From Echinarachnius parma (taxonomy: Eukaryota; Echinodermata; Echinoidea; Clypeasteroida; Echinarachniidae), in contig JBAMJV010000859.1 of assembly GCA_037951105.1 (NCBI GenBank), forward strand, positions 53,127 through 117,126: DNA of 64,000 nt. The letters run 5' to 3'. The notes below the pieces were generated by a model. That model searched no databases, was not told the origin of the DNA, and saw nothing but the letters and a program-made list of their open reading frames with translations. This document shows positions 6,066-48,137 of the stretch, in pieces (the stretch's first letter is position 1; the number at the start of each line of letters is the position of its first letter). Made by a program: the position numbers and the translations under genes.

Positions 6066-6126
6066 ATGGCGGAAGGTGGTAGTACGCAGAAACCAAGCCC
6101 CAGCACTTCAGGTGGAAAGCACGGAG
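6066..6126 (+). CDS. Gene A exon 1 (start exon)
   Basis: Encodes MAEGGSTQKPSPSTSGGKHG plus one base (phase 1). It is Ser/Thr/Gly-rich and probably disordered. The first 8 residues and the sequence before the ATG match gene B exon 1 nearly exactly, which fixes the start. Donor: GGAG|GTATTT. Confidence 0.75.
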
Positions 6127-9100
6127 GTATTTCAAAACAACTACCGTTGAATTTTTTTTAACAAGTCTATATAATTTATCTGAGAAACATTTAAATGAAA
6201 GATTGTACAATACAATGATATTACTGCTTGTATTACAACTTGGTGTAGACCAATGTATAATAATGTGCAGTTCGCGTTAGTATCACAATATTCAATGCAC
6301 CGGTTTTCCGAAAGTCTTTACCATGTTTATAATACCGTGCATATTGTGCACACGGTGCTTACATGTGTATCTGTATTCAAGATTAAACCTTTGAGGCAAG
6401 GGAACTATTATAGGATTTTCCGGTCAATGTCGGAAGTTGGACACACGTATTCATTTTGTGTGCATTCATTTTCGCCGATTTTGTCACCGCAGCTGTATTT
6501 TGTCATTCAAATTCGTTTTTTAGCATTTTAATTCATATAACGATCATTCGAAAACATTGTGTTTGCGTTCGATTTAAAACGTGTTTCGATTTAGGGCGAG
6601 AAATTTCATGATTAAGTAATACCGTCTACCGGTTGAATGCTATAAATTGAATGTTATAAATGCTAAATCACTTGACCGAAGAGCTAAATAGAATGAAGGA
6701 AATGCAATTTTAAACGACAGTTTTAAGCCTTCAGCTTAATTTCGCAAAGTTGAATGAACAGCTTATCAAAACGAATGCAAAGTTTACGAAATTGGCCGAG
6801 AACACCTATATTATCGTAACAACTCGTACATTGCTTTATTTAACAGAGAAAAAAAACCGGTTCAATGATGTATATATAGATATATCATCAAATATAATAT
6901 TAAAAAAGGAAAGCCAAGGTATAGTACAAGTATTAAAGGGGAGAGTAAGTGTATAAACAGAAATCAAGAGAAAGGGTAGAAGGTGTGAGCTAGTTTACCC
7001 GTTCACTACGGGAACCTTGTAACCGTGTTATAAAGTACGTATTTAATGTGTTAAAGAATGAAGGTGTGAGAAAATGCATTACATTGTAAAACAAAAAGTA
7101 TTACTGAAAGATTATAAGTGAAGGAACAAGGAAAATGCGCAAGATTACTGCAGTTAAATTTGAGACCTGCATTATTCCACACATGTTAAAATTGTAAAGG
7201 TTCACTTGAGTATTGGTACTTCCCAAAATGCCTCTTAACACTAATTTGGTTGGTTTTAATTCCATTTGAAAGTTCATTGAATAAAACATGTGAAATGAGA
7301 ACCATTCCCTTTCGAATGCTCTTATATTGTGAAATTTGATTTCAAAATATTGATTTATAAGTCTATCTTGCCACGGGACATCTAATGCTTATAGACTCCT
7401 TTTGAAAACAAATACATTTTTTGTAAATGGTTGTTGATGATTTCACTATTTAATCATTTTCAGAAAGCACCCTATTGAGCGGTAACGGCTCGTTTTGAAT
7501 GAAAACCGGGTTTTTACTTAGTCGTTTGTAATTGTGTATACGTTTCGAGCATGGTGGAGTTATAACTATTAGTTTGTACCGCAATGGTGCATGTTTTGGT
7601 TACTAAAATCAGGTTTGACCAAAACTCAACTATCCCTTCAAACTGTGCTTATATGCTCATCTGATTCAGAAACATATCCAGGAGTGAGTCGAGATGTAAC
7701 AGATTTCAGTGAGGACGAGTTGGCAGATCTTATCCCGAAGGTGGCATCGTGGGACAGGGTGTTCAATCACCTGAGCCATGCTGGATCAGACGCTCCGTCT
7801 TGGGAGGTATGCCGAGATCCACGAGTGTTTCTAGCAAAAGCCATTATGAAGCAAGAAATAACAAGGCTAGAACTTGCAGCGACTTTTATGCAGATTGGGG
7901 AAAGTCACATCTCGGAACAAATTTTATTTGGCGATAGTCACAACTCGGAACAAATTTTATTTGGCGATAGTCACAACTCGGGACAAATTGTATTGGAAGG
8001 TGAGTTTTTATTACCCGTTATGTATCACATAAACATCATCATGGTAATCATTATAATGACGTTCATAAAACAACTGGCTTAATATATATGATGTGGTCTG
8101 CGTTAGTAATGTTTAATATTATTTTAACACAAAATGAATAAAAAACTAATAATGCATATAATTGTCTCGTTATGCCAGTGAAACCACATGACACACTCCC
8201 GATTTCAACAAAGTTTATTACACTTTCTTTCCAACAGAATTGACTCGGAATGTGCTTGAAGGAATCTATTTCAACCATGATATACATGGAGACCTAAACA
8301 ATGAGATGAACTGCTCCAACGCATTACTTGAGGCGCGACAACCGCAGAAGTTTCAGGAAACTGTCAGACATCGAAGTTACAGCTCCAGTTCGTCTTCCCT
8401 TGAGGAAAATATCCAAACTAGGTGTTCCGCAGAACTTAAGGAATGTCTGACCGCCATGAAAAGTAAATATATTACCTATTTAAATAGTGTTTAACCACCA
8501 ACAGAACCTTCCACCGTCTTTACCTGCCCAAAATGCAGAAGACAATGCCTCTTAAGGCTCGGCCTAGCAACACCAGGCGCTGTATAATCCGGCCCCGTAA
8601 ACTCGACTTGACGCATACCCATTGTCTCGAGACAGAAGGGGCCAACAACTGTAATTACTGGGGAAAAAAATAACAAAACGCACCCCCCGTGATTCATTCC
8701 ATCCTGTCAATATTTGGCAGTTGCGGATGATCAAACCTGTTTTGTGCTTATTTTTGTATTTCGTCAAAATAATGTACAATGGATAAGGGATCCCCGAGCG
8801 TATCGAGCCAAGATAATAATTACATGTATTTTTATTTGTCATCAAACGTGTACAGTGGCGTAGACAGGTTCCAACACCTGGGGGGAGGGGGATGATTTGC
8901 CGTTCACCGGAGACCAAATTTTTCGCGCCCGAGACCGCCTGAAAAAAAATTTCGAGACCGAAGAAATTGCTTGAAAGTCTTCTCAGTTGGGGGTGGGGGG
9001 GGGGGGGGGGGGGGGAGTGTCCGTCGCCAATTTTTTTCCCGGCCAGGAACGCCTGCCTAATTTTTTCGAGACCGAGGGAATTTGTTGAAAGTCCTCTCAG

Positions 9101-12100
9101 GGGGGGGGGGGGGGGCAGGGGGGGAGGGGGTGGGGCTCTCGTCAATTTTGTTTTCGCAGCCAAGTTCATTCATTAAGATGGTCGAGACCAGGCGCGCCGG
9201 AAGCAGTTTTGAATTGGGGGGGGGGGGGGCAAAAACCTAAGGGGGATCACGATTTTATGTGTGTAGGGGCTCATGTCCATTCACATTCACAGGGCTGCCA
9301 ACCTAGAGCCAGATGTGAGAGTGAGACATTGCGAGGGAGCGAAGTGACTGAGCGGGGGGAGGGTGTGGGACTGGGAGGGGGTGTCCCCCTTCCCACGGTA
9401 GGGAGCTTTTCCATTTTGGACATGAAATTGTGCAATCTGGTGCTTACCTAGAAAGGGAATTCAGGCTTAACATTGACTGTATCTGGAAAAGCGTGTTATG
9501 ATTTGATCGACCATACATTTTAAATATATTTTCACCAAGAAAACAAATAATTGACACACTAATACATATGTACCCCAGCACACAAACAAATATTGTATTT
9601 ATATTGTAGTGTCATACACAGTTTCAACATAAACCATATGCCACATTATGTATCATCCAACAACATAGCCTATAACCAAGAATGAGTCCCGAGGGGGGTG
9701 CAGCTACCGAGGGCTGGGGCAGAGCCAACTAGGGAGGGTTTGGGAGGGGGTATCCCCCTCCCAAGGAGAAGATTTTGCATGTATATACTTGGAATGGTGC
9801 AATTTGGTGCACGTCACACAAGCAGCCAGAGAAATGCCAGCCTACACTGGAACTACGTAGCCCGGTACAGAACAAAATACTCTCCCCAGACCATACGCAA
9901 GTTACACAACAAACTGAGATAATCTGTTCTCGCGCGAAGCGCTCAGCGAAAATTTAGAAAAGTAGATTTATAAATTACCTTTTGAACGTTAGAATTAACA
10001 AGTCTTAGTTCATATAATTATTTTTTTCTTTCCCACTCGTATACAGATACACAAAAGAAAAATATATATCCTTGCCTAAAACTTGGGGGAAGATTGTACA
10101 TGTCATCCCCCCCCCCCCACCTTGTGAGATGGGGGGGGGGGGGGGGGGGGTGCATACCCCGCACCCCCCGTGTAACAAAGCTATATTTGTAAATGGTGCT
10201 ACATACAAGCTTCACCCTAAAAAGGCCGGGTTATTTGAGGTCTTCCTACGGCGGGGGGGGGGGGGGGGCATTATGGCCCCCTGTGAAGTGTATAGAATAC
10301 AATGGTAATAAAAACAAATTGAAAAAATTATTAATTTGCATATTTATGGTAATTTATGCAAATAAGGTCATACAATTCATATTTTTACCCATAAATCATA
10401 TATTCTTCATAATTAAACTGTGGTTTTGACTACATATATTCTTTAGAGCATTTGGAATAATAATACGGCAAATTCTTTTTGGAAGAGCCAGGATATTCCT
10501 TATGTTTTCTATTGTTTTTATAATTTCTTATGTATTTCTTTGTTTTTTTTTACTTGGTATGTATTTTGTTGTTTTTGTTGTTTATTTTATTTTTAACTAT
10601 AATTCAACTATTTTGAACCCCAAAACAAACATATCAAATGTAAACAAGACCCAAAAACCAATGATATACCTCCTTATACGAAAACTGATATTTCCATGTT
10701 TTGTACATAAATCACGAAATTGAGCGATTTTCGGGCTGACATGCATAGACAAAAGGTCACGTGACTTCGTAACGGTATGTCCGACTTTCAAAATGTTTGT
10801 TTTTAAATATGCGCAAGACCCAAAAGAAAAAAGTCACCAAGCAGCTGCGCGTCATCTTACCGCGTTTTGGAGCAATAAAAAAAAATCGCGGAGGGGGGGG
10901 GGGGGGCATTATGCCCCCCCCCCCCCCCCCCCCCCCCGGCCGCATTTCCGAACATTGAGCACGAGTTTGGCTTGATTCGGGGCGGAACAGAAGGGGTTTT
11001 GTCTTAGTTTCGGGGGATATACCCTAACCTAAACCCTAACCCTAACCCTAATTTGGTGGCTATAGGTCAGATTAGTGGCTATAGGTAAGATTTAGTGTCT
11101 ATAGGTCAGATTTAGTGGCTATAGGTCAGATTTAGTGGCTATAAGTATATTTATAACTCGAATTGAATACGCGCGCATTAGTCTCCATTCAAGTCGCCCG
11201 ATTCCAATTAAACGGGCATACCTTATGCGTTAGTGCCATAGTAAACCTGTTTGGGAAAAAAAATTCGCCCCCCCCGGCCTTATTAGGGTTAACACTATTC
11301 ATAATGTTTAACATTTTATTGTATTTGCAGTGTTGACGTATAAAGGAGCCGGATGGGCAGAAGGGAAGATGAAGGCATGGCGTGATGTTCAACGCCGGGT
11401 TGAGTCGTGGAATGAGTGCATTCGCGAGCTCGACTTAATTGGCAAGATGTATGGTGGCCGAAGAATGGCAACTAATATCCATTTACGGAATTGGATACTG
11501 CATAGAACAATACACGGACCAAGAAGTCTTTCACGATCAGACATCGAAATACAATCTGCCCAGAAAAGATGTTCTTATTTCAAAAACATATTGAGATCAT
11601 ATTCGTCAGGGAAATTCGAAAAACGACTCGCAGAAAATCTCGAAAGGACAGGTGAAATTAATGATACTGTGTTTATTTACATTTAGCATTTATTGTATTA
11701 TATAATTTCATATGAAACACGATTATATTAACATTACATTTAATTTGTACAATGATTGCGGTAATGTACGTAAATTTAACAAGTTCACCAATATTGTAAG
11801 TAATCTAATTTTTTGACAAAGATTATATATTAAATAGTTCAGTATTTGTATAACATGATATGCTAATACAAATGTAAACGTATACATTGTTTTCTTTAGT
11901 TTAGCATAAATAAAATGTAAGTGTCGAAACACGTAATAATTACTCGATCACTACATTCTAATAAAAGCATATCTCATGAATCCCCGTCACTCCCACCGAT
12001 TCAATTATTATTTATATATCTTAAATAGAACTGCAAATATCTGAAACGGAGATAAGTGTCTAACCAAGGAGACCACGAGAATAGTCGACCTGTGCAAAAG

Positions 12101-15100
12101 GTTGCTCCCTGAAACAGTTAAAAATCAAGTACATGTAATAATAAGAATAGATCACTGCATTGTTTTAAAAGCACATTTCATCACTTTCTCGACCTATTAT
12201 CATTTATATTATTCAAATAGAACTGCATGTATCTGAAACGGAGATAAGGCGTCTAACCAAGGAGACCATGAATATATACGATTTGTTCAAAATAATGCAA
12301 ATCCCTGGACCATTCGATGTGCAGGAATACATCAAGAAATACATCACGAGACACGAACTCTTTCTAGCACTCCGTCTCTCGGGATACGGTCAGAAAGCAA
12401 GACTGCTCTATGGTATGACATTAATCACTTGGCAATGATTTGTTTTTACTTTAATCTGACAGATATACATTCGAAATATAAAATCGACTAGATTTTAGAA
12501 GCATAAGATATTACTTAGATATGAATTCAAAAAAGAGCATTGAGCTTTACAACATTGACATGCTTATGGTTCCGTACACATTATGTATAATTGTAAGCCC
12601 TAGTCCAATACTCACAGTTTTCACGGCAAATCGCAAAGATTTGGCATTCGTGGAGAAAATCGCTTAGGTCGTTCTGCATCGTTGTACATCGTAGTTGTTC
12701 TTTCCCAAAATCGTTGCGCATCGAGAAGAAAATCGTGAAAGCGGGGCCAAAACCGCTAACACGATTAAATCAAAATCGTGACAAGTTGCCGTTGCGAGTT
12801 CTTGTTAAGTAATTTTCACACCGTTGCAATTCTCGTACCACGTCGTCGCACGTATTTTCGCTTTCCTTTTTGGTTCGTTTTATGTCGTGGCGATTTGAGG
12901 CGAACTGCAACGAATCAGTACGACACAGAACGGGGTAGAGAGTCGCCGTAATATTGCAATTCGTTCTGAGCCGTACCGCGTCGTTGCAAATATCGTCGCT
13001 TTCCTTTCTGGTTAATATTAGGTCGTGGCGATTTTAGGTCGCAAAACGTGACACACATTGACTGCGCGGAAAATGCGAAGTAGACGGAGAATTTTACTTG
13101 AAATCAAGTCGGGCCTCGCCAAACAAGAACAACGTGTCCCAGTGACACATTCCCGTAAAGTAGTCCCGTTAGAGGCAGAGCTGAAACAATATCCATATCT
13201 AAGAATTTGTTTTGAATATTATGAAAATGCTGCTCTGCCTTCCCTTATGTGATGGGAAAAACAGGAACTGCCACGGTTAAGACACGATATAGCCATGATA
13301 TTGCCACCGGATAGCCTCATTTCATTGTATTCTACAGACATTCCAAAACGTGGCCCTATAGGGGAAGGCTGTACAGGTGCATGTGACTGGGGCATTAGCG
13401 ATGAGCTGGTATAATTCACAACAAATAGCAACGATGAACAACAATTGTGATCAAATCGTTGCGGCATGGCGACATTACAGCGACTCGCAACTACCTGAGC
13501 GATTTTCTCCTCAAATGCTAATCCGTTGCGATACGCCGTAGAAATCGCCACTATGGAACCGATTTTTTTTTTCTACCACGATTTTTCTACCGCAATGGTT
13601 GAAGAAAGATCGGACGAACTGACTCGTTGAGCAAGGACAAAGAACGACTATTCCGTTCAATTCTTCCAAACCCGTTGTTGAACCGTGGCTAAATCGAGTA
13701 GATTCGTTGATGTAAATCGTTGTGATTCGTTGCAGTTCGCCGTAAAAACTTAAGTATGGGACTGGGCCTTTTTTGTACGCCAACAATACAACGTGCATCA
13801 AGCTGACGTGCATGTATATAAAGGCCCCGTCCCATACTGACGGTTTTCACGGCGACTCACAACGATTTGACTTTCGTCGAGAAAATCGCTTTATATGTCG
13901 TTTGCATCGTGTTACATCGTATCGGATCAATCCCACAACCGTTGCGCATCGTGAAGAAAATCGTGAAAGCAGGGCCAAAACTAGTCCGGAAAGATCCGAC
14001 AATGTTTCGAGGGTTCTTTGACGATTATGTTTTGATAACCTACTCTCTCCATAGTCTGAAGGTTCAGTGATTCGCTTGTGTTTTGTAGATCTTCGAGGCA
14101 ACAAAATCAATTAAATACTAACCCGAAAGTACCCCAATTCACTACCTATCAAATGCACATACATGCACGTTGAATTGCTGTTATACAAATATAACGGAAA
14201 TTATCCTACATTATCAATTCACAAATCAAGTTCTTCACTTACTAAATCAATCTCTCTCAGTTCCTTTTCATTGGCCTTTTTCGTTGTAAAAGTCACGTAA
14301 TTCATTCGCACTCGATGGTCGCCATTTTCTAATGAATTATTCATAACGTACGCGTACGAGTGCTGAAGCCCAGTGTTATCGATGCTCGTGCCCTTCGGCA
14401 CGTATTTAATTTTCGCAACGGGCACATACATCCCACAGCGAGTTGGCATATCAAAATATGAATATTCATGAGTTTGATTTTCTTAAGCAGTGGGATTGGT
14501 CAAGCTTGTGTTGGGTTTATTTAAACCCAACACAAAAAGTAACTTCACCCCTAAGCAATTGCCCATAATTTCATAACCGATTATTGTTTCAAGATGTCCT
14601 CTTACCACAATATTGGTACAGTTGTTATGTTCGATGTGTGCGAAGATCAGAGATATTCATTACTTTATGGCTGAATGAGCACAGATTAAAGACAAAATGG
14701 CCCAATTTAAAAGTCACAAGGTATTGTGTGCCTGTACATTGTTTTGAATCCACACATGTGGCGGAATGCATTGAGCATGGTTTATGAAACAATGCTGTTT
14801 GATAGTCTATTCATTTTGATTTTTTGATGGCATATGTGGTAAACTGCATTAATTGCAATTGTAAAACAGCGCATTTTTTTTAATTTTCCAACCCTCAATA
14901 ATTTGTAATAATGATAATACTTTTGCGAATTTTGAAATATGACTATTTTTTCTGTAATGTGTGCTCACTCAACCATGGATTAATAGTTACCTCTTATTTG
15001 TACACATTGTTTTCCTAACTACCATATGGATACATTGGCAAGACGAAATTTTGAAACGATTCTTGGTTATGAAATTATGGGCAATTGCTTAGGGGTGAAG

Positions 15101-18100
15101 TTACTTTTTATGTTCGGTTTATATTCATTTTCTAGTTAACGGTTCTCACTGCTCGCTAAAGGAAAATTTGACATCGAGAGAGTAAGTTCCCGAGATCTGA
15201 CTTTTTTACATTTATTTCAATTGATTTGGTGGTGGAGGGGATTGCATGACGTCATAATATTAAAGAACCCATCCAGAACGAGATGGATATTTCTGTCTAG
15301 GCCAAAACCACCGTCTTAGAACAGTCGCCGCGCCAACACGATTGTATCAAAATCGTGACAAGTTGCCGCTGCGAATTCGGGATGAGTCATTTTCACACCG
15401 TTGTAATTTGTTCTGACTCGTACCGCGTCGTTGCACAGACCGTTCTGGTTCGTATTATGTCGTGGCGATTTGAGTTGAACTGCAACGAATCAGTAATACT
15501 CAGAACGGTTTAAAAAGTCACAACACGTTGCATACGATGACTGCGCGGAAAACAAAAAGTAGACGGAGAATTTTCTTTCGAATCGAGTGAGGTCGTCCCG
15601 CAATCGTCTGTTTTCCCTCGCCGAACAAGAACCACATGTCCCAGTAACACATTCCCGTAAAGCATTCCCGTTAAAAGCATAGCTCGAGTCTTTGCGAGTC
15701 GCCGTGAAAACCGTGAGTATGGAACTGTGCCATTACATACATCATTTTTTAATAGCGCTTCATTATTTTCATAAATGAAGTGAAATGTGAAATTTCTATA
15801 TTTTCACAGATTACAATAATTATTGAAGACATGCGCAAGTATGTCCAACCATGAAGCAATGTTTTTAATTCTCGTACTAATATGAAATATTTGTACACTA
15901 TATAAGATCCACTTTATTTTCATAATTTATTTTTCAGGTGTGAACATGAATGACGACTTTTGTACCAAAACCGTAAGCCACCGTGGCGAGATGTTCGAAA
16001 TAGAAGGCTGGGGCATTCATATCAAAGTTCCCTTGGGCTCACTTGCGAAGGCTCAAAAGGTCACGTTTCATCGTCTTTCCGAGGTACCCAGTGAGAACAA
16101 ATTGAAGGACGAAGTAGCCATCGTGCCTGGGATCCGATGTTGTCCTTCTGGACTGCAGCTCAATTCGCCATTGCAGCTATCCATCGAACATTGTGCATCC
16201 ATCACCGATCTCGGAAAGCGCACAGAAGACGCAGTTGTGGTCTACCAGAGACAGGAAATAGGTCCTAAAGGTATGCTAAGGAACTGTATGGAAATATCAA
16301 TAAATTTAGCGCTTAATTTTGATTCATTTTATTTTCACAGATCAATTTCTTCCTTTAACTCTCTGCAACTGTTTCAATATCCCCAATATCCAGAATTATT
16401 CTCTTTTTAGACCAAATTGCATGTTCCGCGTTTGTAATATGAAACTACTAAATATAAACAACATGCGAGTAATCTCTTACCGGTAAATGGACATGTAAAA
16501 GCATGTTTAACTAACCGTAACGTTTAAATATATAGATACACATGCGAATAACGAAGGTCACACCCGTCACAACCAACCCAGATCACCCTGTTTTGACACA
16601 AGCGCAACCATGCCAATGTGAAGATGGGGTAAAATCAAAGCTGAAATTTGGTCTTGTAAACGCCCGTTCTGTGCGAAACAAGTTCTCTTGTTGACTATGT
16701 CATGGATGAGAAATTTGACCTCTTCGCAATTACAGAAACCTGGTTGAAGGACATTGATGATGCTCACAGGGCTGAAGTAACTCCAGCAGGATACAAGCTT
16801 TTTGATGTTCCCCGACCATCACGCCCTGGAGGTGGTATTGCACTCGTGCGAGACCACATAACCGTCAAGCAACATGATATGCGGCAGTTCCAATCATTTG
16901 AATACTGTGAGTGGAGCATCAAAAGTGACACTTTTCGTATACATCTAGCCTTGGTTTATAGGCCACCATACTCGCCAAATCATCCTGTTTCAATTGGTAC
17001 GTTCGTCAAGGAGTTTGCTGAATACTTGGAACCCCTCATTTTGACCGCCGACCCGCTTTTGATTACGGGTGATGTCAACATTCATGTTGATACTCCCAGT
17101 GACCCTTCCTCATCTCAGTTCATGGATCTGTTGGAATCTTTTGGTCTACAACAACATGTTACTGATTCTACTCATGAATCGGGTCACATCCTTGATCTGT
17201 TGATCTCTCGGCAGTCAGGAAACATCATTTCTTGCCCACCCTCACCCCATCATCTCTTCTCGGATCACTTGTCTGTGATTTGTCATCTGGATGCTGAGAA
17301 GCCCAACGTTCCCATCAAGGAAATCTCGTACCGGAAGATAAAGTCTATAAATCTAGACGCGATGAAGGATGATCTCCGGTCATCACAACTTTGCACTGAC
17401 TCTCCAAGTGAACTCGTTACTTGTTATAATGCCACACTATCTGTGACTTTAGACAAGCATGCCCCCCTCCATACGCATAGAATTTCCTCACGTAACCTTG
17501 TTCCTTGGTACAACAGCGACATGCGGACGGCTAAGCAGTGTAAAACCCCTTTTTAATTGGAGAACGTGTTTTCTACCTCGCTTTTACCCGAGTGAGATTT
17601 CCATAAAAACAGTAGGAGGTCATGTCGTAAAACACGCAGTGAGAGGTTGTGCAGCGTTTTTAATCAAAAATGTTTCTCCGAGTCACACGGGTAAGGTTAC
17701 TATAGCAACCGCACCTCTCTCATCATGCGACCAGCTGGCGTGACATGTGCTAATCGGCGCGCGCTGGTATACGTTAGCGCGGGAAATGTTGACGGTCAAT
17801 TCATATCGGGTATATACATACAACAGGCAATCGGGAGCGCAATTGTCAGTCTACTATAGTCACGCTAGTTTTTTTTTCGCTGCATAATTATAGCGCATGT
17901 AATAATACTATACCGGTTTATATTCCTTACACGTACGGTACGAATCTATTATTCTTCAATCCGACTTCAAACTTCAACAGTAATCATGGATTTGCGGTGG
18001 GTAGCCATAATGCTACTGTTCCGTGCAATTCACAGCATGCAAACTTGTTAAACTTCCAATTTTTATATTCATAGTATTATAACTTGTATTATTTGGGCAA

Positions 18101-28639: not shown

Positions 28640-28680
28640 CAGAGAGAGAGAAAGATAGAGAGATAGAGAGATAGATATCT
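28640..28680. repeat. (GA)n / (GATA)n microsatellite
   Basis: AGAGAGAGAAAGATAGAGAG-type tract, positionally equivalent to 4932-4961. Confidence 0.75.
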
Positions 28681-30031: not shown

Positions 30032-30168
30032 ACCCCCCATGTCCGCTCTTGCCCGCTAGATGGCGACAAACCCCACATAACCTCCTAGTGATCCATCCAA
30101 GTGGATCTCTCACGTTAGGTGCATACGAGGGGTGTATCGCCATCTAGCGGGCAAGAGCGGATAGGGGA
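30032..30168. mobile_element. Short palindromic MITE
   Basis: CCGCTCTTGCCCGCTAGATG (GCGA) at 30043-30066 and its complement at 30137-30160 form a perfect 24-bp inverted repeat, with weaker C/G extensions outside. Confidence 0.75.
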
Positions 30169-31639
30169 ACAGTACATTTTTGGTTTACCACAGTCCTTAC
30201 TGGAATACACACCTCCCCGAAGCTTTATGAAGACACAAATGTTATCTTTTGGGACCTTATTAATTAACTGTGCGTAACATTCGGTCATCTATGGGACAGA
30301 ATCTGTACAATGTTATCCTGGCAGATGCCTTTCACCCCTGGATATAATTGCTTGTACATCATCTGATTGCAACATACAAACAGATTTTGTGGGGATCTAA
30401 ATTTGAGCAACATTGTCAAAATCCACAAAACTTACTATTTACAGTTGTCTAGCGGTTCTCAGCATCCTCATCAATTCCCCCTCGTCAAGATATGTTTAAT
30501 TGGTAAGTTCCTATTTGATAATCAGTGGTGGACACTTGATTGCGTATAAAGTCAATGCAATTAGTTAGCGAATATCATTTGGCATTTTCGCACATTAATT
30601 TGCTCGGTCATATGACATTCTTATTCCATTGAATTTCCTAAATAATCACTCAGTCACAGATCACAGATTATACATTTTATCAACCTTTCCTCAATTTGTG
30701 GTCATCTCAACAAATTTACTACACTGTTTATCCCTTTCAAATGAACATCACCTATATATATTGAATACATTAAACTACAGCTTAAACCACAGTTTTGCAA
30801 CCTCCAACAATTTAACAATAACTTCTGCCCCCCCTGAAAAAAAAAAACAAGAGCGGGTAGGCAGAATTAATCCCTTGAAAAATATTTATTTATCATCAGT
30901 AGTAGTAGTAGTATTAATAGTAGTAGTAGTAGTAGTAGTTCAAATTTTAGCTGATCTCGAGACCCAATTTTAGTGGTCTTGACCGTAATTTTCTATGGCC
31001 TCGACCTCGGAAAGTGAGAAAAAACCGTGGTACCGACCTCGAAAAGGGCAAAAAAACCGTGATTGCGACCTTGAAAATATCAAAATTTGTTGGTCTCGTC
31101 TTCGAAAAAAGCGAAAAACCGAGGTCTCAGCCTCGAAAATGGCAAACATTTTCTACGACTACCCCCTCCCTTTAAAACAAATCCTGGGTACGCCATTGAG
31201 TAGTAGTAGTTATATTATTATTATTATTATTAGGCTGTTATTACTGTTAGTATTATTATTATTTTGCTTATAACAGCCACCTTCTGTTTTCATACTGGCT
31301 CATCATATTCCCTATTCAAGATTTCTATAATTGTGTTGATTGATTTGTGTAAGATAATGAAAAACTGACGAACGAACGAATTCGAACGAACATACATTTT
31401 CAATTTTTAATCAAGTTTGGCCAATGCTCAACTGTCCCTTCAACCTCCATTCACTCGTAATAATGATAATCATATTACATACATGTTGTGCTACCAGTTG
31501 GACAAACATGTACCACATATTATGATCCGATGACACGTATACATTTCTTCCTAATATACAGTCAATTACAATGAATTTATTGAGGAAGACAACAATCAAT
31601 GGTTCATAATACCATCTCAGTGTGATTCACATGCATGTA

Positions 31640-31757
31640 TTTGTTTTGTGCGGTACGAAGGTCATACATTCCGCTCAACTGATAAATCCTTTTGATGGTG
31701 TTAAGTAGTATTTTTTGCTGACATGACGATATATAACTACAACGTTGTGTAACAAAC
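31640..31757 (+). promoter_or_regulatory. Conserved 5' region of gene B
   Basis: Counterpart of 5945-6065. Shares 'TACGAAGGTCATAC', 'CCTTTTGATGGTGT' in part, and 'CAACGTTGTGTAACAAAC' abutting the ATG. Taken as promoter and 5' UTR, with the start site unknown. Confidence 0.5.
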
Positions 31758-37700: not shown

Positions 37701-40700
37701 TGAAAATCATCTGTTTATGGCCGAATGAGCACAGATTAAAGACAAAATAACGCAATTTCAAAAGTCACAAGAATTTGTGCGTGTCTGTCCATTTGTGTGA
37801 AACAGCACGTAATTATGGCCCAACATGCTTAATGCATTATTTATGGTTAGTGAAATTTCAAATTGTACTGTGTTACGATTGCAACTAATGCCATTAAAAA
37901 TCAAAATTAGTGGAATATCAAACAGCATTGTGATGTCTACACTATACAGGGTGGCTCCCCAAAAAGGGAACGGGGCGCTTCCCGAAACAATATAGTAGCA
38001 AAATGATTATGTCCATCAGATATGGTATATCAATAACAGTCATGTTGGTGGTGTATTTTTTAGGGCGATGTGAGTGACACCAAATCAGTGCCTGATAAAT
38101 CGGACTTACTTCCCGTCATAGTATCGAATAACTATGTATATTCTCTTGGCACTCAGCTGAATGCACACTAACTATGGCGCGCGTATTGCTCGTTGCTCGA
38201 TGCTATGACGGGCAGTTAGTGCGATTTATTTGACACTGACTTGGTATCACTCACAGCGCCCTAACACAAAAACTACATAACCAAAATGAATGTTCTTGGT
38301 ACCGTGTATCATTGGTAAAGACACCGTATCCGATGGACATAATCATTATGTTACTTTATTTTGGGAAATGCCCCCTTCCGTTTTTTTGGGGCCATCCTGT
38401 ATAGAGATCAGTTGAAGAAAACATGCATTTTAATTTCAAGGAACCGTTAAAGCCTTCCATCCGCTCGGTAAGTGATTGTTTAGAAATGACCATCTCTATC
38501 CAGGACAGTGTTTGTTTCTCTCACGAAGTGCTGGTCGGCGTTGCATTACCTACACGCACTCATATGGTTTTGAAATTGACATGTGTGGTCATTCGGGGTC
38601 AAAGTCATTTCATTGTAGGACACACTTAAAAGTTGGGAGTGGCGATAATCTTTTGATATATATCCCAATATTCAAAACGCACTGAAACACTCAGGAGTCC
38701 ATTTTTAAATCATACTTATTATGCAGATGTAGAGAAGCATGCGGAATACATTACAAAAACGATGGGCGTATCGTCAGATAGAACGTTTGACATGGAGGAC
38801 TGGGGCGCACATGTCAAGGTTCCGTACGGCTCACTGTCGAAGCAACAAAAGATAACGCTCCAGCGTCTATCTGAAGAGCCGAGCGGGAAAGGCGCCGATG
38901 AAATAGCCATAGTGCCTGGAATCAGATGCTGTCCTTCGGGTCTCAGGTTCAACTCTCCACTGATCTTATCTTTCCAGCATGACCTGACATTTGCCGAGGA
39001 CGAAAAGCTGTCCAACGACGGAGTTGTCATCTATTTGAGACAAGAGGAAGGCCGAAAAGGTACTATCGTACAGCTCACGTTTATTCTAAAAAATTTGGTA
39101 AAACGCGTTTAAATTTACAGCTTGATAATTAGCTCAAAACTTTAGAATGGACAATAGTGACCCCGAATTTTCCTTCAATTTTTATCAGATGATATCTTTA
39201 AAGTGTACAATTTCTTGAGTACAGTTGTGATTTGTATTTATGCGGTGCATAATGATTTATAGATATTTTGGAGAGAGGTTTTATCGAGCAAAATAGGATT
39301 TTGGAGCTTGTCTTTTTATTAATATACTGCACCAGGATCACGGATTCAAACTATGCCTACGAAAAGTGTGCATTAATTACTTATCATCTGTTTTTATCAC
39401 TGGGTTAAACCGTTCCATAATGTTGGAGCATTTTATCAAATTTATTATTATTTTGAGATTATATTTCTTTGTAAAATGTATACTATTTATGTACGTATGC
39501 ATGGAAATCGGAATTTACAAACCAGTTTACATATTGAATTCAAGAAAAACTTACTCTTACTGATTTATGTGCATATATACATGGAACGTTACGATCTTAG
39601 TACTGGTAGTTGTAAAGATCATCCATTTAAGTTCGCTCTCCATCAAGGTATAACAATATCAGAACATTTAACATATCAATCACAAAACGCGAAAATGGCA
39701 AACTGATTTGACAAACCATTTGATATATCCAAGAGCATATTGTTCTTACTGATTTGTGTACACAGAAACGTGGAAGACTGAACGTTACGATCTTAGTACT
39801 GGCAGTTCTAAAGATCTTCCGTTCAAGTTCGTTCTCCATCGAGACAGGATAGAAATTACCCTCGATCACTTCACTTCACTCTGGTTCTACGTCGAGAGGT
39901 ACATCATTCGCTACAAAACATTCAGGTGCAGACCATTCCTTCCAGAAAGGATGCCTTCGACAAAAATGCCCATCCTTCACCTACACGTGTACAGCACAAA
40001 AAGACTTTCCAAGGTAAAGTGTTACAAGTTAATAAACAATATAGTATGTTTACGATATTAATCATGAAATGTATTCGTTAGCCTCATAAAAATATGGAGA
40101 TGAACAGAGCCTATGACAAATGAATAATCACTTAGTTACCTAATACAATTTCTGATTTGTTGCCGAACAGGAAATTGAGCAGGAAGAGCACAGCTCAAAA
40201 CGCGCATACCACGAGGCCAGAGTCAGTCAGCCATTCAAAGTGAAGTACAACGATACTCCATTGACGGTCACCTGCCAACACAGTATCGCAGAACCTCAGG
40301 TAAAAGCAGTGAAAGGGGTAATCCAGTATCGATGCTGTCTGGAAAATCGCTCGTATTCAATTAATTTATCTTTATTTATTTATTTCTTCTCATAGGGTGG
40401 ATGGCCCATTTGTTTAAATTGCGTTCAAGTTTGCTTTTAAGGTAGCCCGTTCGCATATATATACATATATTTGCTGATTGTGGGTTTGTATTTAGTGCCT
40501 GATATGGTAGGTTTGTACAGTATCTGTTTATTGTCCGTATATTTGTTTTCATACACTATGTTAGTCTTTGTTATATCCGTCTTGTATTTCTTTGCTTGAT
40601 AATACAACCCAATCTTTCATGCATCTAATCTCTTTTACAGACCATTCCATACGCTGATCTTGCCAGCCCAAATCCAGGTCTGTTAGAATTTGAACTCGAT

Positions 40701-43700
40701 TTCACGCGCGGCGAATATGAACGAAATCTGAGAGTAAGTCTTCGTCAGGGCAATGACGCAACGCATCCACCTGCATCGTTCATGTTCTCTACGACATTTG
40801 AAGGTAAACTCCTCATGCAGAAATAATGATGAATGATGGCAGAATGGATGGTTATAAGAAAACAAATCAGAAGATTTTCATGATTACATTTGATTTGATT
40901 ATGTTGAACAAAACGAAGTTTAGAGTAAAGAAAAGTATGTAATTATTTCAGTAAGCGATTTCAACTACTGAACTACAAATCCCTTTATAAAGATCTTACC
41001 CATTTTTGCAAGGCAAGTTTCTAACGTTGCGAGAGAAAGAAAATGTCATTTAAGACCTAGCCTGAACAAATTGGGGCTGGAAACGTCGTGGAGTTATACT
41101 GACTAAGAACTTAAAGGGATAGTTCAGTTTTGGTATAGAGGGTGCTACACAAAATAATTTTTTGTGAGATAATGAAAAATTGTCGAATTTGAAAGAGTGT
41201 TGAATCTGAGAGAACATACAATTTTAATGACAGAATAAACCTTATTTGATCAAAATCGGTTCAGAAATGGCTGAAATATACATAAACAAAACCATCTGTA
41301 ATAATTGTGGGGCCCCACAATTTTTCGATAATTTTGAACGAGCCGTAACCAAAAAGAAATGTTTCCTCTTTTCAAAAATGTACAAAAGAGGTTTTAAAAT
41401 ATAGGTTTTCCCGCTCAATTTTGCACTTTTTTCAATCGAATTAATTTAGGGTCATTCGAATTCGCGCGTTGCCGCGTAATCGTTGGTATCGGTCTTCCAA
41501 ATTCCGAATAAGTGCATGCGAATTCATGCATACGAACACGCTTTCGTGAATAGACACAGAATTTCATTTATGGGCATTCGAATTCGCGAATGTGCAGCCA
41601 ACTGTCAACGGCCTTTCGCGAATTCGAATGACCATTGATGAAAAGGTATGCACTTTGTGCAAATTCACTTGCTCCTACGTGATTTTGAACGACTATTTAC
41701 GAATTCGAATGCTGCTTTGGTACGGCGATCGCAAATCGCGCGAATTCGTTTGCTCCTATTATCAATTCGATTGACACAATCGCGAAATTGAGCGGGAAAA
41801 CCTATAGTTGTTGATTATCTCTCTATCTAATCACTATTTCAAGAAAATATCACTTGCACAATATTTGAATTTAAATGGTAGAAACCAATGAGTTTTTAGA
41901 GAGCGCCCTCTTGAGTTTTAACGACTCTCTTTGAATGATAACAACGCTTTTTACTTAGTCATTTGTAGTGTTGCATTCCTTTCGAGCATGATGGAGTTAT
42001 AACTATTAGTAATGTAATTGTGCAGGTTTTGTTTACTAAAATTCAGTTTGACCAAAACTGTACTCTCTTTACCAAAACTCAACTATCCCTTTAAGGTCGG
42101 ACCGTACTTTTCTTCTGATTAAAGGGACAGTTCCTTTTTTACAAAACGTCTAAACAGTTTCCAGTTGACGGATGGGGATGAATGTAACACACAACACAAA
42201 ATCAGATCGAACAGCCCGGATTCTACGAATGAAAAACGAATGCGTCCCTCCATCAAACTATATATCGGTCAATAAAGGAGTTTAACTGATTATGCATAAT
42301 ATTACAATAATATTGTACTAATTCTGGTATAGGTATTGTGTAGCCGACATTTGTAAAGGTATGTCACGGAAAAAGATAAAAAAAATGAAGAATATGAAAT
42401 TACATGTTGTCAGTTTAAGCGAGGTTTGGTTATTTTGTTTAGTATCCGCTTATGCCGTTGTTATTTATGCGCGGGTCACGTAGCTAGCGCGGGTCACGTA
42501 GGGGTCACGCATAGCGTTGTAGTACTCCGTGGAATCCGTGTGCGAACTTTTTCACCGGGTGAATACACGTATAATGCACAATTAAATGTTGGACGACGAT
42601 ATATTAGTTTTAGGTCTATAACTCCACGAAAAAGAGATCTCAAGCCCTAATTTTTGCAGGCACGCTATTAAATGACATTTTCTTTCATATAAGACAATAA
42701 CCTCGCAACTTGTAAAATTTGGCTTGCCTTCGTTTATGTATGGTTTTACTCACATTATCTATCAGCGTGGTGTGGCTGTGTGGCAAGCCCATGTTCGCAT
42801 GGTGCGGTTATATCACAACAACGGCGAAAGCAGAAGACTAAAAAATAACCAAGATTAAAACCTATTTGTTCATTCTTTAATTACGAGACTTTTCTATTGC
42901 ACATTTGAAAGAAAGGTTGTTTATGCAATAACTAAACATGAATAACAACAACATGGTTATATTATGCTAAATCAGTTTTAAATTTTCTTTTGTCTGAAAT
43001 GAAGCTCATTTAAGAGATGATTTTTTCCATGTGTTCATATTCCTTTTTGTATTTTTAGAACCTAAGTTACAGGGCTGTTACTGTTAGATGTAAAATAATG
43101 GGGGTGTTACATTCATCCTCAGTCGACTGGAAACTATTTGTAAATCGCGGGTACCCTTTTCAAAAGCCCAAACTATAAGTCAAAAAGTTAATGTTGTCAT
43201 TTAAAATCAAAATTGTTCGATATTTATAACATTCTGGTTTTCATTCCTTTCTTCACTACCATGGACGTTTTGTAAGAAACGTAAAGATAACTGATGTGTG
43301 AACTATAAGCAGGACCCTTGGAGGCTATCATTTCATTGAGGTGGTACATACCCTCGGACACGTCCTTGCTTCTCTTCACACAACTAAACCGGAGACCTCG
43401 GACACGGTCATTCCCAATACCACCCCCCCACCCCCCCTCCCCCCCCCCCCCCCCGCTCAAACAACTACAGCTGAGTTCCCGGACACCATCGCTTGCACAA
43501 CTAAACGGAAAGTCTCCTATACATCCCACTCTGCACCCACACTCACATAAGTAAACCAATTGCCACCCCAAACATCGACCTCCACAACCCTACAAGTGAA
43601 TAACGACCACCTTTTCGTCGTATAAATGGTGGCCCTTAAAGGACAATGAAATCCGAAATGAAAAGTGTTGCTTGCACTATTAGACACTACATATGATGAA

Positions 43701-46700
43701 TAGTCCCTGAAAATTTGAGCACAATCGGTCAAGAAATATCTACGAGTAACTCAAATTCGCAACACACACTGGAAATATATTTTTTTAATTTTATTTTTTA
43801 AAATATACGTTTACTCTTCGTTTCAGCTCAACTTATATTCTGTATAATGCATTTATACACAACATATCATGATTTGGGGGAATGGAAAAGTGGGACTATG
43901 AAGAAAACTGTAAAAATGTGAATATGTGTGTACAAAACATATGGGGATAGTCCGCAAACTTATCAGAGTGCGTTGCCAATTCGGTCAAGTGATTAACCAC
44001 TTTTAGCATTCAATTAAAAAAACACGCTATTTGAAATTAATTTCGCAAACGGATTTCACGGAAGGCGGTATTACGTAATCACACATTTTCTCGCTTCAAA
44101 TTGAATGACAATTGTATTAAATAAAAACACGTTTTAAATCGAATGCAAACAACATGTTTTTGAATGATTGTTATATGAATTCGAATGCTAAAAATTGAAT
44201 TTGAACTGCAAAATACAGCTGCAGTGACAAAATCGGCGAAATTGAATGCACACAAAATGAATTCATGTGGCCAACTTACGTAATTGACGAAGAAATCCTA
44301 TAATATATATTACCGTACTTTTGTAATGTATTATTTCCTATGTTTAGGCTAACATCTTAATTCTTCGATTTTTTTTTAGACGGGCAGACATCAAGATGGT
44401 TCATAAATACATTCCAAGAATAACATTAGCTAGTTTGAATTCAAAAAGAAAATATGTATTAACATTAGAGCCGTTAACGCGAGAGGCGCTAATCAGAAAC
44501 CTGTAAAGATTTAACTTGTTTGTTTGTTTTACATTCAATAAACCAAAAGCAACTTCTGTTAATTGTACTTATGTGTGGGTTTATATAAATATTTAATTTA
44601 GAATGGGGCTTTATTTGTGTTAATGCTGACAATTTGTAAGAACGATATTGCGAGATGTACGGTTAATGTTCTTAACATAATTTAAATGTACTATGGTAAT
44701 GTCATTTCAGCTGGAAGAATATGTGGTTCTGATTCACATAAAGAATCCACGACGGGACTCTCGGAAGATAAACTTCGTAGAATAGCGAAGGCGATACCAT
44801 TTGGTGAAGATAAGATCATGGATCTAGGTATGGCCCTCGGCTTTCTGTACAAGGATGTCAAAACGTACTCATCAATGAACGTGTCGGGTGGTACAATCGA
44901 TAGAAGTGGGACATTCGACATGTTAATGGAGTGGACAGGGAAGACAGAAGCAGCAGACCAGGTCACACTCTTGCGGCAAGCCCTTCTGAGCGTAGAGTGG
45001 GTTACGGTTGTCGAGGAACATTTACCAGACACGTCAACAAAAGGTATGATCATACGCGTGAGGAAAGATGTTTGATGATGACAAACTTTGTTAATTGATT
45101 TCATATAAACTCCTCTGAAAAAGTTTGACAAGTTTTTTAAGCCACCTAATTCTCATTTATTTGAGACCTGTTTGTATCCTTTTATGCATCAGTGGATTAG
45201 ATAATTATCTCCTCTATAAAATGACACCACCTTTGAAACAATTGCTTGCTCTATGGCTGAGTACCTTCCCTTTGTTTTCAGGTGGGTCGCAAACAGAATG
45301 TTTGCCGAGAAATGCCACCTGCGAGATGCTGAAACCTCCGCCCCACACCCAGACGAAGTCACAGCAACCACCTTCCACAATGTCATCTTCAAGCCGAAGA
45401 TCATCAATAAACTGTTGAAGCAGCTTGCACCCGACAAAGCAACTGGCCCAGACCAAATCCCTGCAAGAATTCTTAAAGAGTGCAGTGCAGAGCTTGCCAG
45501 CCCACTTAGTCGCTTATTCCATCTCTGCTTTTCGCAAGGTGCTTTCCCAGGTCGATGGAAGACTGCTACAGTGACACCAATACACAAGAGGGACTCAAAG
45601 GCAGACCCATCCAACTATCGTCCCATCTCCCTACTCAGCATCATTAGCAAGGTCATGGAAGCAGCAGTAAACTTGCAGCTACAAAGATACATGTTCCAGA
45701 ATGACCTTATCTCAAACAGACAGTTTGGTTTCAGTCCAGGCCACAGCACTGCAGATCTTCTCACATACTGTCTCAGAAGTGGAACAACGCCATGGACAAA
45801 GGAGAGGAGGTGTGTGTCATAGCCCTGGATATCAAGGGAGCCTTTAACAAGGTGTGGCACAATGGCCTGCTAGCCAAACTTCGGTCAAAGGGCGTCTGCG
45901 GAAAACTGCGGACATGGCTACACAGCTACCTTTCAGGGAGATCAATCAGAGTCGTCATGTCGGGCCAGACTTCAGAAGCGTCGCCAATCAACGCTTCTGT
46001 TCCCCAGGGATCCATTCTCTGGCCTCTGCTATTCTCTATCTACATTGACGATATTGTTGACATGTGCGAGAATGAACTCTATCTATATGCAGATGACTCG
46101 ACACTGTTTGCTCCCATCCACTCACCTAAGTACATCAACGCTGTTGCTGCCGGTCTAAACAAGGATCTTGCCAAGATGAAAGCATGGGCTGACAAATGGA
46201 AGGTCACCTTTCAGCCAGCAAAGTGCAGGACAATGACAATATCAAGAAAACGAACTTCATCAAAACTGAACATCTATCTCGGGGACTGTCAGCTGGACGC
46301 GAATGACCAACTTGATATTCTGGGAGTCACGTTTGACTGCAAGCTCTCTTGGTCCAAACAAATTTCAGCTATCGCCACCAGAGATGGACAGAAAATAGGA
46401 GCTCTGAGGAGAGTTACTGGCAAGCTAGACACTACAGGCAGATCTACTGTCTACAAGTCACAAGTCAGGAGCATTATGGAATATGCCTGCCTATGCTGGA
46501 CAAACGCCCCACCAACCACTCTCAGCCAACTCGACAACATCCAGAAGAAAGCTCTCAAAATAATAGGAATCGATGAGACCACTGCACGCAACCTATTCTC
46601 CATCCCTAGCCTGTCCCACCGACGACAGATTGCTGCAGTGTCAACACTCTACAAAATGCATACTAGCAACTGCCCACAAGACCTGGCTGATATGCTTCCT

Positions 46701-48137
46701 CCTCCTCTGGATAGACGGCGTGTGACTAGGTACAGCACATCCTTGCCAGACCACGCACTCACCATTCCTGATGCTCGAACATACACTCTGGATAGAAGTT
46801 TTATTCACTCGGCTGTTCGAACATGGAACACTCTTCCAGATCATATTGTTGGCAACATAACAACCATTGGTCTTCAATCATTTAAAGGCCATGCGCATGT
46901 TCACCTCCTGTTAAAGTAGTTGTTAGTATTGATATATATATATTTATATTTTGTTAAATTTTACTTTTTTAGTTAAATGCAGTGGACCATTTGATTGGCC
47001 CTCTAGCGTCACAATAACACTCTGGAGGGCTATTGTTCACATTTGCACCTTATATAAAAAAAAAATTTAAAAAATGTGCCAACATTTTTCATTACTCTAA
47101 TGCAGTCAGGCCTGAATGCAGTATACTCATTCATTCACCCATTCATTGATTCATTCAATAGTATTATCCAAACTTTTTGTGAGGAGTTTAGTAACCGGGA
47201 TATTGCATTGTGTGTGTTTGTTAGTTGTACCTTTTCCTTGGATTTATTTTGTTATTTATACAATTATGTTATTTCTCTAAAGCACCTCGTATTGCACATT
47301 GCACTGCAACTGAAATTGGCTATTAGTGGTCCTTTTGTAATTTATTATTTCCTATGTTTAGGCAAAAATCGCAATGCCTCGAGTCGTTAAGACCGGCAGA
47401 AATCGACATGGCTCATAAAGACATTTCAAGAATAGTATCAGCTATTTCGAATGTGTTTAGAGAATAGTTCATCATGATGATAGTTCACAGCTATCATTAT
47501 TTTAATTCCAACAGTCGAACCAGTAACTCGAGGCAAGAGGAAAATGAAGCGAAAACTGGTTGAAGATGATGATCAGTTTGCCACACCAAGCTCGAGTTCT
47601 TTAACGCGTGACGCCAGATATTCTTCTGGGTAAGTATTAATCCGTTTATAAGATTAAACACAAATATGACGGAAAATCAGTGTTTCCTACAAAATATTTT
47701 GCCAAAGAACATAATTATTAACAGTTCATTCTCATTCTCTGTAACAATTACAATGAATTATAAATGATTCTCTCATAGTATTAATATTTCTTTTCAGCTT
47801 ACTACCATATGCATTGACTTACTCAGACCGAATCTCGGAGAACGGAAAAGAGGAAATAGCTGGACGTATTTCTCAATTAGCCTTTAGGCAATTCTTCCTC
47901 GATCTTGGATGTAATGCGGATCGTGTGGATGAAGTCCTTCTTCAGTGGAGCGAAAGTTACAGCAGTGCGTCTCGTCAGCTCCTGAACGAATGCATCGATG
48001 AGCGCAAACTCGGCAAAATCGCCATCCGTCTTGCAATGAAATATTATACTCTTTTGGAAAGATACGTTTCACAATTATTATCAATAACATGTGAATTAAT
48101 TTACAAACTTGTTAGCAATGAAAGAATCGGAGGATAA
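31758..48137 (+). CDS. Gene B: ZU5-UPA-death domain protein, paralogue of gene A with altered C-terminus
   Basis: Predicted exons: 31758-31818, 33280-33543, 33766-33984, 35008-35331, 35920-36111, 38727-39059, 39766-40013, 40171-40299, 40641-40803, 44711-45043, 47515-47629, 47798-48137. The total of 2721 nt gives 906 aa and a stop. Splice phases are identical to gene A at every junction, and exons 1, 5, 6, 9, 10 and 11 have exactly the same length. Modules as in A: helical blocks, ZU5 (about aa 365-455), UPA-like (465-645), death domain (about 665-752), NLS-like linker, C-terminal module. The last about 33 residues come from former 3' flank, joined by a deletion. Intron 9 holds a nested MITE and a 1-kb TIR element, and intron 10 a LINE. 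No signal peptide or membrane segment. Expression of the changed tail is unproven. Confidence 0.78.
31819..33279 (+). other. Gene B intron 1
   Basis: The segment 31900-32195 is repeated at about 34115-34430 in intron 3 ('GACGACACTGCTACAGCCTGA', 'ATAATGTGCAGTTCGCGT', 'GATTAAGTATAGATAAACAA'). A G run at 32519-32538 and a decayed tandem array at 32580-32900 follow. Confidence 0.6.
32580..32900. repeat. Decayed tandem array 'CCCTAAGCAAGTA / CCCTAAACGAGTA'
   Basis: About eight degenerate units carry 'GATACC(C/G)TAAGCAAGTAATC' or 'GAGACCCTAAACGAGTA' separated by T-rich spacers. Not CRISPR-like, because the spacing is irregular and the units diverge. Confidence 0.7.
33280..33984 (+). CDS. Gene B exons 2-3: N-terminal helical module
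   Basis: Exon 2 (33280-33543) keeps DELADLIPKVASWDRVFYHL, SDAPSW and HITRLELAAAFMQNGE. Exon 3 (33766-33984) keeps TFQET...R.YS and SSAELEECLTAMES. An in-frame alternative acceptor for exon 3 exists at 33705. I prefer 33765 because the length then matches gene A and the pyrimidine tract is better. Confidence 0.65.
35008..36111 (+). CDS. Gene B exons 4-5: helical module 2
   Basis: Exon 4 (35008-35331): GPEWAEGEMKECHDIQRRVE, then LLRQLVGWILFGLGESWYSM, IELKSAQKR and LEMTG. Exon 5 (35920-36111): ELSETEIRHVAEK, VDVQEYIKRYTSRHELF and LALRLSGYSGQAGRLY. Both are phase 1 to 1. Confidence 0.7.
35446..35637. mobile_element. Small MITE with G runs, gene B intron 4
   Basis: GCAGTGGCGTAGCG and CGCTACGCCACTGC are perfect 14-bp ends facing each other about 190 bp apart. 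The inside has two runs of about 17 G. The same 'GTGGCGTAGC' end motif is seen near other G-run repeats in the window. Confidence 0.75.
36112..38726 (+). other. Gene B intron 5
   Basis: Contains a G run (36756-36770), a decayed relative of the 14532-15112 MITE (37590-37925) and a mariner-type MITE (37945-38401). The stretch 37290-37345 resembles 55505-55590 ('TTGCAGAAAGAG.T.CAATCAATTG'). No exon seen. Confidence 0.55.
37945..38401. mobile_element. Tc1/mariner-type MITE, TA flanked
   Basis: The ends TACAGGGTGGCTCCCCAAAA and TTTTTTTGGGGCCATCCTGTA are imperfect inverted repeats with TA on both sides (37943-37944, 38402-38403). 457 bp, with inner symmetry around the two 'TTTGACACTGAC' / 'GTGACACCAAATCAGTG' regions. 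No transposase. Confidence 0.75.
38727..39059 (+). CDS. Gene B exon 6: ZU5 domain
   Basis: Same 333-nt length and phases as in A. Encodes FDMEDWGAHVKVPYGSLSKQ, EIAIVPGIRCCPSGLRFNSP and LILSFQHDLTF. The 'PHCA' of typical ZU5 ends is changed to QHDL here, so B may differ in surface or stability at this strand. Confidence 0.82.
39569..39646 (+). pseudogene. Ghost copy of exon 7
   Basis: 'GAACGTTACGATCTTAGTACTGG' (split) then 'AGTTGTAAAGATCATCC.TT.AAGTTCG' repeats the start of the true exon 7, about 190 bp downstream, together with the preceding 'CTTACTGATTT.TGT'. The acceptor AG is lost, and homology ends at CATC(A/G)AG. A broken tandem duplicate. Confidence 0.65.
39766..40803 (+). CDS. Gene B exons 7-9: UPA-like region
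   Basis: Exons 39766-40013, 40171-40299 and 40641-40803. Key readings: HFTSLWFYVERYIIRYKTFR, PILHLHVYSTKRLSK, QPFKVKYNDTPLTVTC, LEFELDFTRGEYERN and VSLRQGNDAT. Phases 1-0, 0-0, 0-1 as in gene A. Confidence 0.75.
41115..42090. mobile_element. TTAA-family MITE with a nested element
   Basis: TTAA at 41111-41114 and 42091-42094. Ends AGGGATAGTTCAGTTTTGGT and ACCAAAACTCAACTATCCCT. It is longer than its relatives because of the 403-bp insertion at 41402-41804. Confidence 0.8.
41402..41804. mobile_element. Nested TA-flanked element rich in ATTCGAATTCGCG
   Basis: The ends TAGGTTTTCCCGCTCAATTT and AAATTGAGCGGGAAAACCTA are perfect 20-bp inverted repeats flanked by TA. Removing it restores the 'AAATAGTTGTTGAT' block seen in other family members. 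The inside is built of self-complementary 'ATTCGAATTCGC'-like words. Confidence 0.8.
42140..43146. mobile_element. About 1-kb TIR element, gene B intron 9
   Basis: The left end 'ACAGTTTCCAGTTGACGGAT' continuing 'GATGAATGTAACAC', and the right end 'GTGTTACATTCATC' then 'AGTCGACTGGAAACTATTTGT', are imperfect inverted repeats of about 37 bp. There is a local 'GCGGGTCACGTAG' repeat at 42470-42510. No coding capacity seen. Confidence 0.65.
43420..43460. repeat. C-rich run in gene B intron 9
   Basis: Near-uninterrupted C tract (with A and T breaks) of about 35 bases. On the - strand it is a G-quadruplex candidate. Confidence 0.7.
44320..44445 (+). pseudogene. Relic of intron 10 sequence placed before exon 10
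   Basis: 'TATTTCCTATGTTTAGGCTAA' (split), 'GACGGGCAGACATCAAGATGG' in part, and 'TCATAAA.ACATT.CAAGAATA' match gene A intron 10 (22665-22790) and B's own intron 10 (47331-47455). Here they lie upstream of exon 10. This is best explained by a past duplication of the exon 10 block with loss of one copy. Confidence 0.6.
44711..45043 (+). CDS. Gene B exon 10: death domain
   Basis: Encodes AGRICGSDSHKEST, LRRIAKAIPFGEDKIMDLGM, SSMNVSGGT, GTFDMLMEWTGKTEAADQVT and LLRQALLSVEW, ending VVEEH. Same length as in A, with about three quarters of residues identical by eye. Confidence 0.8.
45256..47060 (+). mobile_element. 5'-truncated LINE in gene B intron 10
   Basis: Only the reverse-transcriptase part is present: 'LAPDKATGPDQIPARIL', 'SNYRPISLLSIISKVME', 'ALDIKGAFNKVWH', 'SVPQGSILWPLLFSIYIDDI' and the catalytic 'YADD' near 46087, ending HVHLLLK and a stop at 46919. 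It is followed by an AT-rich tail and A runs. A one-base frameshift lies near 45780 (TPWTKE against NNAMDKGEE). It differs from the LINE in gene A, being closer to Jockey-type RTs by motif. No endonuclease, so it is dead on arrival. Confidence 0.8.
47130..47162. repeat. (ATTC)n microsatellite
   Basis: CATTCATTCACCCATTCATT-type tract just after the LINE tail. Confidence 0.7.
47515..47629 (+). CDS. Gene B exon 11: basic linker
   Basis: Same length as in A. Encodes TRGKRKMKRKLVEDDDQFAT then a Ser run. A nuclear-localisation candidate is kept. The exon and both flanking introns are nearly as similar to A as the coding sequence. Confidence 0.75.
47798..48137 (+). CDS. Gene B exon 12 with a replaced C-terminus
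   Basis: It follows gene A through LNECIDERKLGKIAIRLAM (to about 48040), then switches to sequence equal to the gene A 3' flank at about 25296 ('TATTATACTCTTTTGGAAAG'). The old ending (IMKNIKELNL in A) is lost and a new tail of about 33 residues, YYTLLERYVSQLL..., runs to a stop at 48135-48137. A smaller deletion relative to A (about 35 bp, near 25360) lies within the new tail. Confidence 0.7.

Follow-up and report, generated by a model that had tools for sequence, protein, structure and literature searches.

Structure of the gene pair

The window (the whole stretch of DNA analysed, 64,000 nucleotides) contains two neighbouring 12-exon genes on the plus strand, gene A at positions 6066–23653 (911 aa) and gene B at positions 31758–48137 (906 aa); all features described below lie on that strand. 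The exon chains were rebuilt on the basis of the sequence, from pairwise similarity between the window halves together with splice sites. GT and AG bound 22/22 introns of the two genes, the intron phases of A are those of B, intron by intron, and no internal stop interrupts either chain. The two copies share 57% identity in protein and 70% in DNA (867 aligned codons). Comparison of the window with itself also aligned the surroundings of exon 1, positions 5939–6290 with 31640–31977, at 70%. Exon 1 of gene A (6066–6126), which supplies the start codon (MAEGGSTQ...), pairs with exon 1 of the gene B model (31758–31818). The coordinates, the GT/AG ends of the 22 introns, the matching phases and the open frames bear out the two complete 12-exon genes that a first-pass annotation had described, and as far as sequence can tell A and B are real homologous genes. 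Neither an Rfam family at gathering score nor a tRNA was found in the window.

ZU5 domain and presumed UPA region

The Pfam scan revealed one ZU5 stretch (PF00791) per protein, encoded by exon 6 (A, 15938–16270; B, 38727–39059). The match in A spans aa 383–462 (E = 1.1e-9), and that in B passes narrowly, with 21.8 bits against a cut-off of 21 (E = 2.3e-4). The ZU5 domain previously read from the sequence is therefore above the Pfam cut-off in both genes, in B only just. A region of ~137 residues sits where UPA is expected, between ZU5 and the death domain, and by this position exons 7–9 are presumed to contain UPA. Exon 7 of A (20468–20709) is presumed from its position to complete ZU5 and begin UPA. 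Exons 8 (21091–21222) and 9 (21496–21658) of A are presumed UPA by position only, as are their counterparts in the gene B model (40171–40299 and 40641–40803). The UPA of the first-pass annotation thus has a region in the right place, but no Pfam match to UPA appears in A or B at E up to 10. A ZU5-UPA profile compared with PDB sequences gave nothing significant, the best being the ZU5 of ZO-1 at 0.062.

Both ZU5 domains have an HF/T sequence in common, which by position falls at the end of ZU5: H516-F517-T518 in A (20563–20571) and H499-F500-T501 in B (39867–39875, in exon 7, 39766–40013). We liken this candidate autocleavage site to the HF/S of PIDD. PIDD is described as cut at HF/S and CARD8 and NLRP1 at SF/S, and such self-cleavage reactions can begin from Ser, Thr or Cys (PMC3210808). 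By analogy, A and B may cleave themselves at HF/T. A cut there would yield 517 + 394 residues from A and 500 + 406 from B, and the C-terminal product would take the basic linker together with the death domains on either side of it. Because the His/Glu spacing of CARD8 is not kept in A or B and the CxH motif, which PMC3482391 ascribes to the ZU5 superfamily, is absent at the HF/T site, cleavage stays a prediction.

The altered His/Glu spacing would also suit an autoinhibited ZU5-UPA-DD protein of the UNC5b type that is never self-cut, with HFT as a structural run at the end of ZU5; UNC5b is described as having Leu in place of Phe and as a template for the same fold (PMC3210808). HFT is identical in A and B despite their diverged ZU5 block, which argues against this reading, and we consider it unlikely.

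Proposed death domains and basic linker

Exon 10 (A, 22158–22490; B, 44711–45043) is assigned to a first death domain. In A, Pfam Death reaches 14.7 bits, short of its 22.6-bit cut-off (E = 0.035, or 0.015 when exon 10 is scanned by itself). B exon 10 has no match of its own, either within the whole protein or as the exon alone, and is assigned through its 72% aa identity with A exon 10. A death domain had been reported as directly seen; it stands as a weak match below the cut-off in A, but B offers none. Exon 11 (A, 22852–22966; B, 47515–47629) encodes a basic, NLS-like linker with KRKKKRK in A (22872–22892) and KRKMKRK in B (47535–47555).

Exon 12 (A, 23353–23653, including the stop codon; B, 47798–48137) probably encodes a second death domain, as a structural model and fold comparison suggest. 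The AF2 model of A exon 12 alone has six helices at low confidence (pLDDT 51.8). Death domains account for 28/42 of its Foldseek matches and take ranks 1–25, every E being above 0.7, and they fill rows 1–22 of 36 with a second structure aligner. Fold comparison thus favours the death fold once conjectured here, with a low-confidence model and no single match significant. By sequence, exon 12 of neither gene matches a Pfam death domain at a useful score, and the profiles of exons 10 and 12 have no significant match among PDB sequences. Local alignments of exon 10 with exon 12 were equalled by 42, 14, 216 and 158 of 500 shuffles. The second death domain is accordingly supported but not proven.

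N-terminal half

In A, exon 2 (7682–7999), named helical module 1, contains three repeats of 33 bases each at the 3´ end and is followed in the gene model by exon 3 (8238–8462) and the presumed helical regions of exons 4 (11331–11651) and 5 (12221–12412). In B, helical module 1 is exon 2 (33280–33543; gene model and AF2), and the gene model continues with exons 3 (33766–33984), 4 (35008–35331) and 5 (35920–36111). The AF2 model of B exon 2 shows six helices and is poor (pLDDT 55.1). Death folds occur in 0/27 of its Foldseek rows and 0/7 rows of the second aligner, which speaks against the idea that exon 2 is a death fold, although this null is not decisive because the model is poor.

No Pfam family scores usefully against exons 2, 4, 5 or 12 of either gene (best 0.12; A exon 5, 0.19), exon 3 having been scanned as part of the whole proteins only. 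Profiles of exon 2 and of exons 4–5 gave nothing significant against PDB sequences. The profiles of exon 2, exons 4–5, exon 10 and exon 12 show no mutual similarity (probabilities 0.2–1.9%) in the five module pairs compared, which comprise all six but exon 12 with exons 4–5. Twelve module pairs were also aligned locally and set against 500 shuffles, in four A/B combinations each, and scored weakly. The best-scoring pair, exon 3 with exon 4, was equalled by 7, 145, 281 and 16 of 500 shuffles. For exon 2 with exon 5 the counts were 23, 425, 16 and 421 of 500, and a module common to these two exons was dropped on account of the weak alignments. No relatives were found in the collections of viral, bacterial and archaeal contigs. 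The N-terminal half is probably helical, without a known relative among the collections searched. In order from the N-terminus, the proteins likely comprise an unplaced helical half, then ZU5(-UPA) and a first death domain, and after the basic linker a second one.

Mosaic divergence and late 3´ exchange

At synonymous sites, A and B have diverged to strongly differing degrees from block to block. pS is 0.39 in exons 2–5 (95%, 0.32–0.46; 313 codons), 0.69 and near saturation in exons 6–9 (0.61–0.76; 288 codons), and 0.13 in exons 10–12 (0.08–0.18; 222 codons). In the last block, exon 12 contributes 72 of its 96 aligned codons, counted from its start, and exon 1 (20 codons) is excluded. With all of exon 12 included, 0/5000 shuffles of the block labels matched the observed range, which argues that exons 10–12 were exchanged late. 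The introns show a comparable pattern. Introns 2, 3, 4, 6, 7 and 8 have none at E up to 0.001, and introns 1 and 5 have one matching piece each, of 57 and 230 bases. In the 3´ part of intron 9 and in introns 10 and 11, pieces align at 75–88%, together with one 17-base piece at 100%. The window self-comparison delimits a block in B from the last part of intron 9 through exon 12 (44439–48040) that matches A 21842–23601 in pieces 82–88% identical, consistent with a late common origin. A late exchange of this cassette between A and B is well supported.

A second junction lies inside B exon 12, where the sequence from 48037 onward matches that from 25293 onward, ~1.6 kb 3´ of gene A. The copied flank extends over 48037–49110 in B and 25293–26405 downstream of A, with 97.4% identity between 48075–49110 and 25372–26405 (1037 columns). 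The last ~32 residues of B therefore come from the copied flank, and the A-type tail is lost. The C-terminal module proposed to be common to both proteins holds for exon 12, but not for these last residues of B. Identity in the flank (97.4%) greatly exceeds that in exons 10–12 and their introns (82–88%), so a minimum of two late events is required: exchange of the exon 10–12 block, then copying of the flank, which replaced the end of B exon 12. The same difference in identity led us to drop a single recent event that copied the entire 3´ block along with the flank.

The flank was more likely copied from A to B, because the flank of A runs on collinear with an older similarity at 55616–57669 and the copy in B ends at 49110. 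For the exon 10–12 block, the A-to-B direction is likewise the likelier one, supported but not proven; it is suggested only by a degenerate exon-12 relic at 49376–49624, which contains an in-frame stop and has a tail of the A type (tblastn 2e-26).

This older relic lies 1.2 kb beyond gene B. It could instead be the remnant of a third gene copy.

Gene B might be a decaying or rewired copy, its tail the accidental coding of copied flank, instead of functioning as a second scaffold. In favour of this, the last exon of B continues into sequence copied from the 3´ flank of A, the degenerate relic lies 1.2 kb further on, and dN/dS is near 1 in exons 10–12 (0.87; 0.53–1.48). Yet B has no stop or frameshift across 906 codons, and dN/dS is 0.28 in exons 6–9 and 0.58 in exons 2–5, values that are pairwise averages across A and B, with exons 6–9 near saturation. 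We consider this reading of B unlikely.

Proposed scaffold function

We favour the explanation that a single gene for an intracellular signalling scaffold was duplicated in tandem long ago and that its two copies, A and B, work as outlined here and underwent late 3´ exchange; we give it about an even chance. The N-terminal half would hold the protein inactive or sense a partner. ZU5 would cut itself at HF/T, or clamp the death domain uncut, as in UNC5b. Once released, the C-terminal part would recruit adaptors through its two death domains in the cytosol or nucleus, and this recruitment would serve cell-death or immune signalling, a role that we infer from the protein families. Long after the genes split, exons 10–12 with their introns would have been copied between them, more likely from A to B, and still later the flank from downstream of A would have been joined into the last exon of B. 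The proposed way of working does not depend on how many such events took place. As a result of the exon 10–12 copying, the two proteins would share their output modules, and their ZU5 modules would be old and distinct.

If the layout is right, ZU5 proteins gain a double-death-domain member without SH3, and the pair is an example of a death-domain output module moving alone between paralogues. Two testable questions arise: whether HF/T is able to replace HF/S in ZU5 autocleavage, and whether invertebrate death-fold output modules are homogenised while regulatory modules diverge. A bolder proposal, which we regard as doubtful, is that A and B represent a hitherto undescribed family of invertebrate ZU5 scaffolds that cleave themselves, with Thr in place of Ser at the cut, and carry at least two death folds; in this family the death-domain cassette would be copied between neighbours and the ZU5 switch would stay gene-specific.

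Comparison with known ZU5 proteins

UNC5 carries an Ig/TSP ectodomain and a membrane helix, and ankyrins carry ankyrin repeats. Pfam matches neither Ig/TSP nor ankyrin repeats in A or B. The best 19-residue hydropathy is 1.29 in A and 0.97 in B, and with no sign of a membrane helix A and B are likely to be soluble scaffolds.

The claim that in known ZU5-UPA-DD proteins nothing follows the death domain was overstated, since MACC1 is described as having ZU5, an SH3 and, near the C-terminus, two death domains; it can enter the nucleus, and its described roles are in endocytosis and transcription (PMC11585957). A and B may accordingly be compared to MACC1/SH3BP4, and could be adaptors of that kind, which would not cut themselves and would serve trafficking or gene regulation in the nucleus. 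In A and B, ZU5 is followed by the death domain assigned to exon 10, a basic linker and probably a second death domain. However, Pfam matches no SH3 in A or B up to E = 10 (a very diverged SH3 could escape), the basic linker parts death domains that in MACC1 are described as partially overlapping, and the N-terminal half is probably helical, whereas that of MACC1 is described as disordered, without helical modules. We consider this reading unlikely.

PIDD1 resembles A and B in its ZU5-UPA-DD order, which in A and B is presumed, and in the HF/S at the end of ZU5 (PMC3210808). It differs in having LRRs, two ZU5 domains and Ser at the cut, where A and B have one ZU5, Thr and a probable second death domain; Pfam finds no LRR in A or B, although very diverged LRRs could escape. 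CARD8 and NLRP1 are described as self-cleaving, with a ZU5-UPA-like FIIND before a death-fold domain (PMC3210808), but that domain is a CARD, the cut site is SF/S, and NLRP1 also has LRRs.

Among invertebrates, UPA-ZU5 and FIIND are described as fused to TRADD-N (PMC8195603), NACHT-ZU5 fusions occur in sponges and cnidarians (PMC12909245, PMC8260672), and sponge ZU5 proteins form an expanded group (PMC3482391). These fusions likewise join ZU5 to death or immunity modules, with some families expanded, but as described they have no double death domain behind ZU5 with this N-terminal half. In the literature searched, mostly outside subscription journals and supplements aside, no description of the exact layout was found. 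Since A and B have no detectable LRRs, a single ZU5, and no detectable ectodomain or membrane helix, ankyrin repeats or SH3, they fall outside PIDD, UNC5, ankyrin and MACC1. We conclude that A and B are ZU5-DD proteins of animal type, with a layout related to that of the known cell-death and immune scaffolds.

Repeats within and around the two genes

Exon 2 of gene A, the upstream of the two tandem genes for proteins with a ZU5 domain and probable death domains, contains three in-frame 33-base tandem repeats (7895-7994), and the extra copies are absent from exon 2 of its paralogue, gene B. A short distance 5´ of gene A exon 5 lies a degenerate second copy of the start of this exon and the intron upstream (11929-12099), which matches 12131-12292 at 74% in the window self-comparison. 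Pfam revealed LINE-type retrotransposon pieces within introns of both genes: an endonuclease and a reverse transcriptase in intron 6 of gene A (16660-20408), and a reverse transcriptase in intron 10 of gene B (45220-46919).

Upstream of gene A, a near-perfect tandem array comprises 4.2 copies of a 36-base unit (3216-3366). Downstream of gene B, the self-comparison identified a recent 1.9 kb tandem duplication (49728-53731), the copies of which (49728-51655 and 51803-53731) share 98.6% identity, and an inverted repeat with arms at 57983-58648 and 63337-64000 (98.7% identity over 667 columns), the second of which extends to the right edge of the window.
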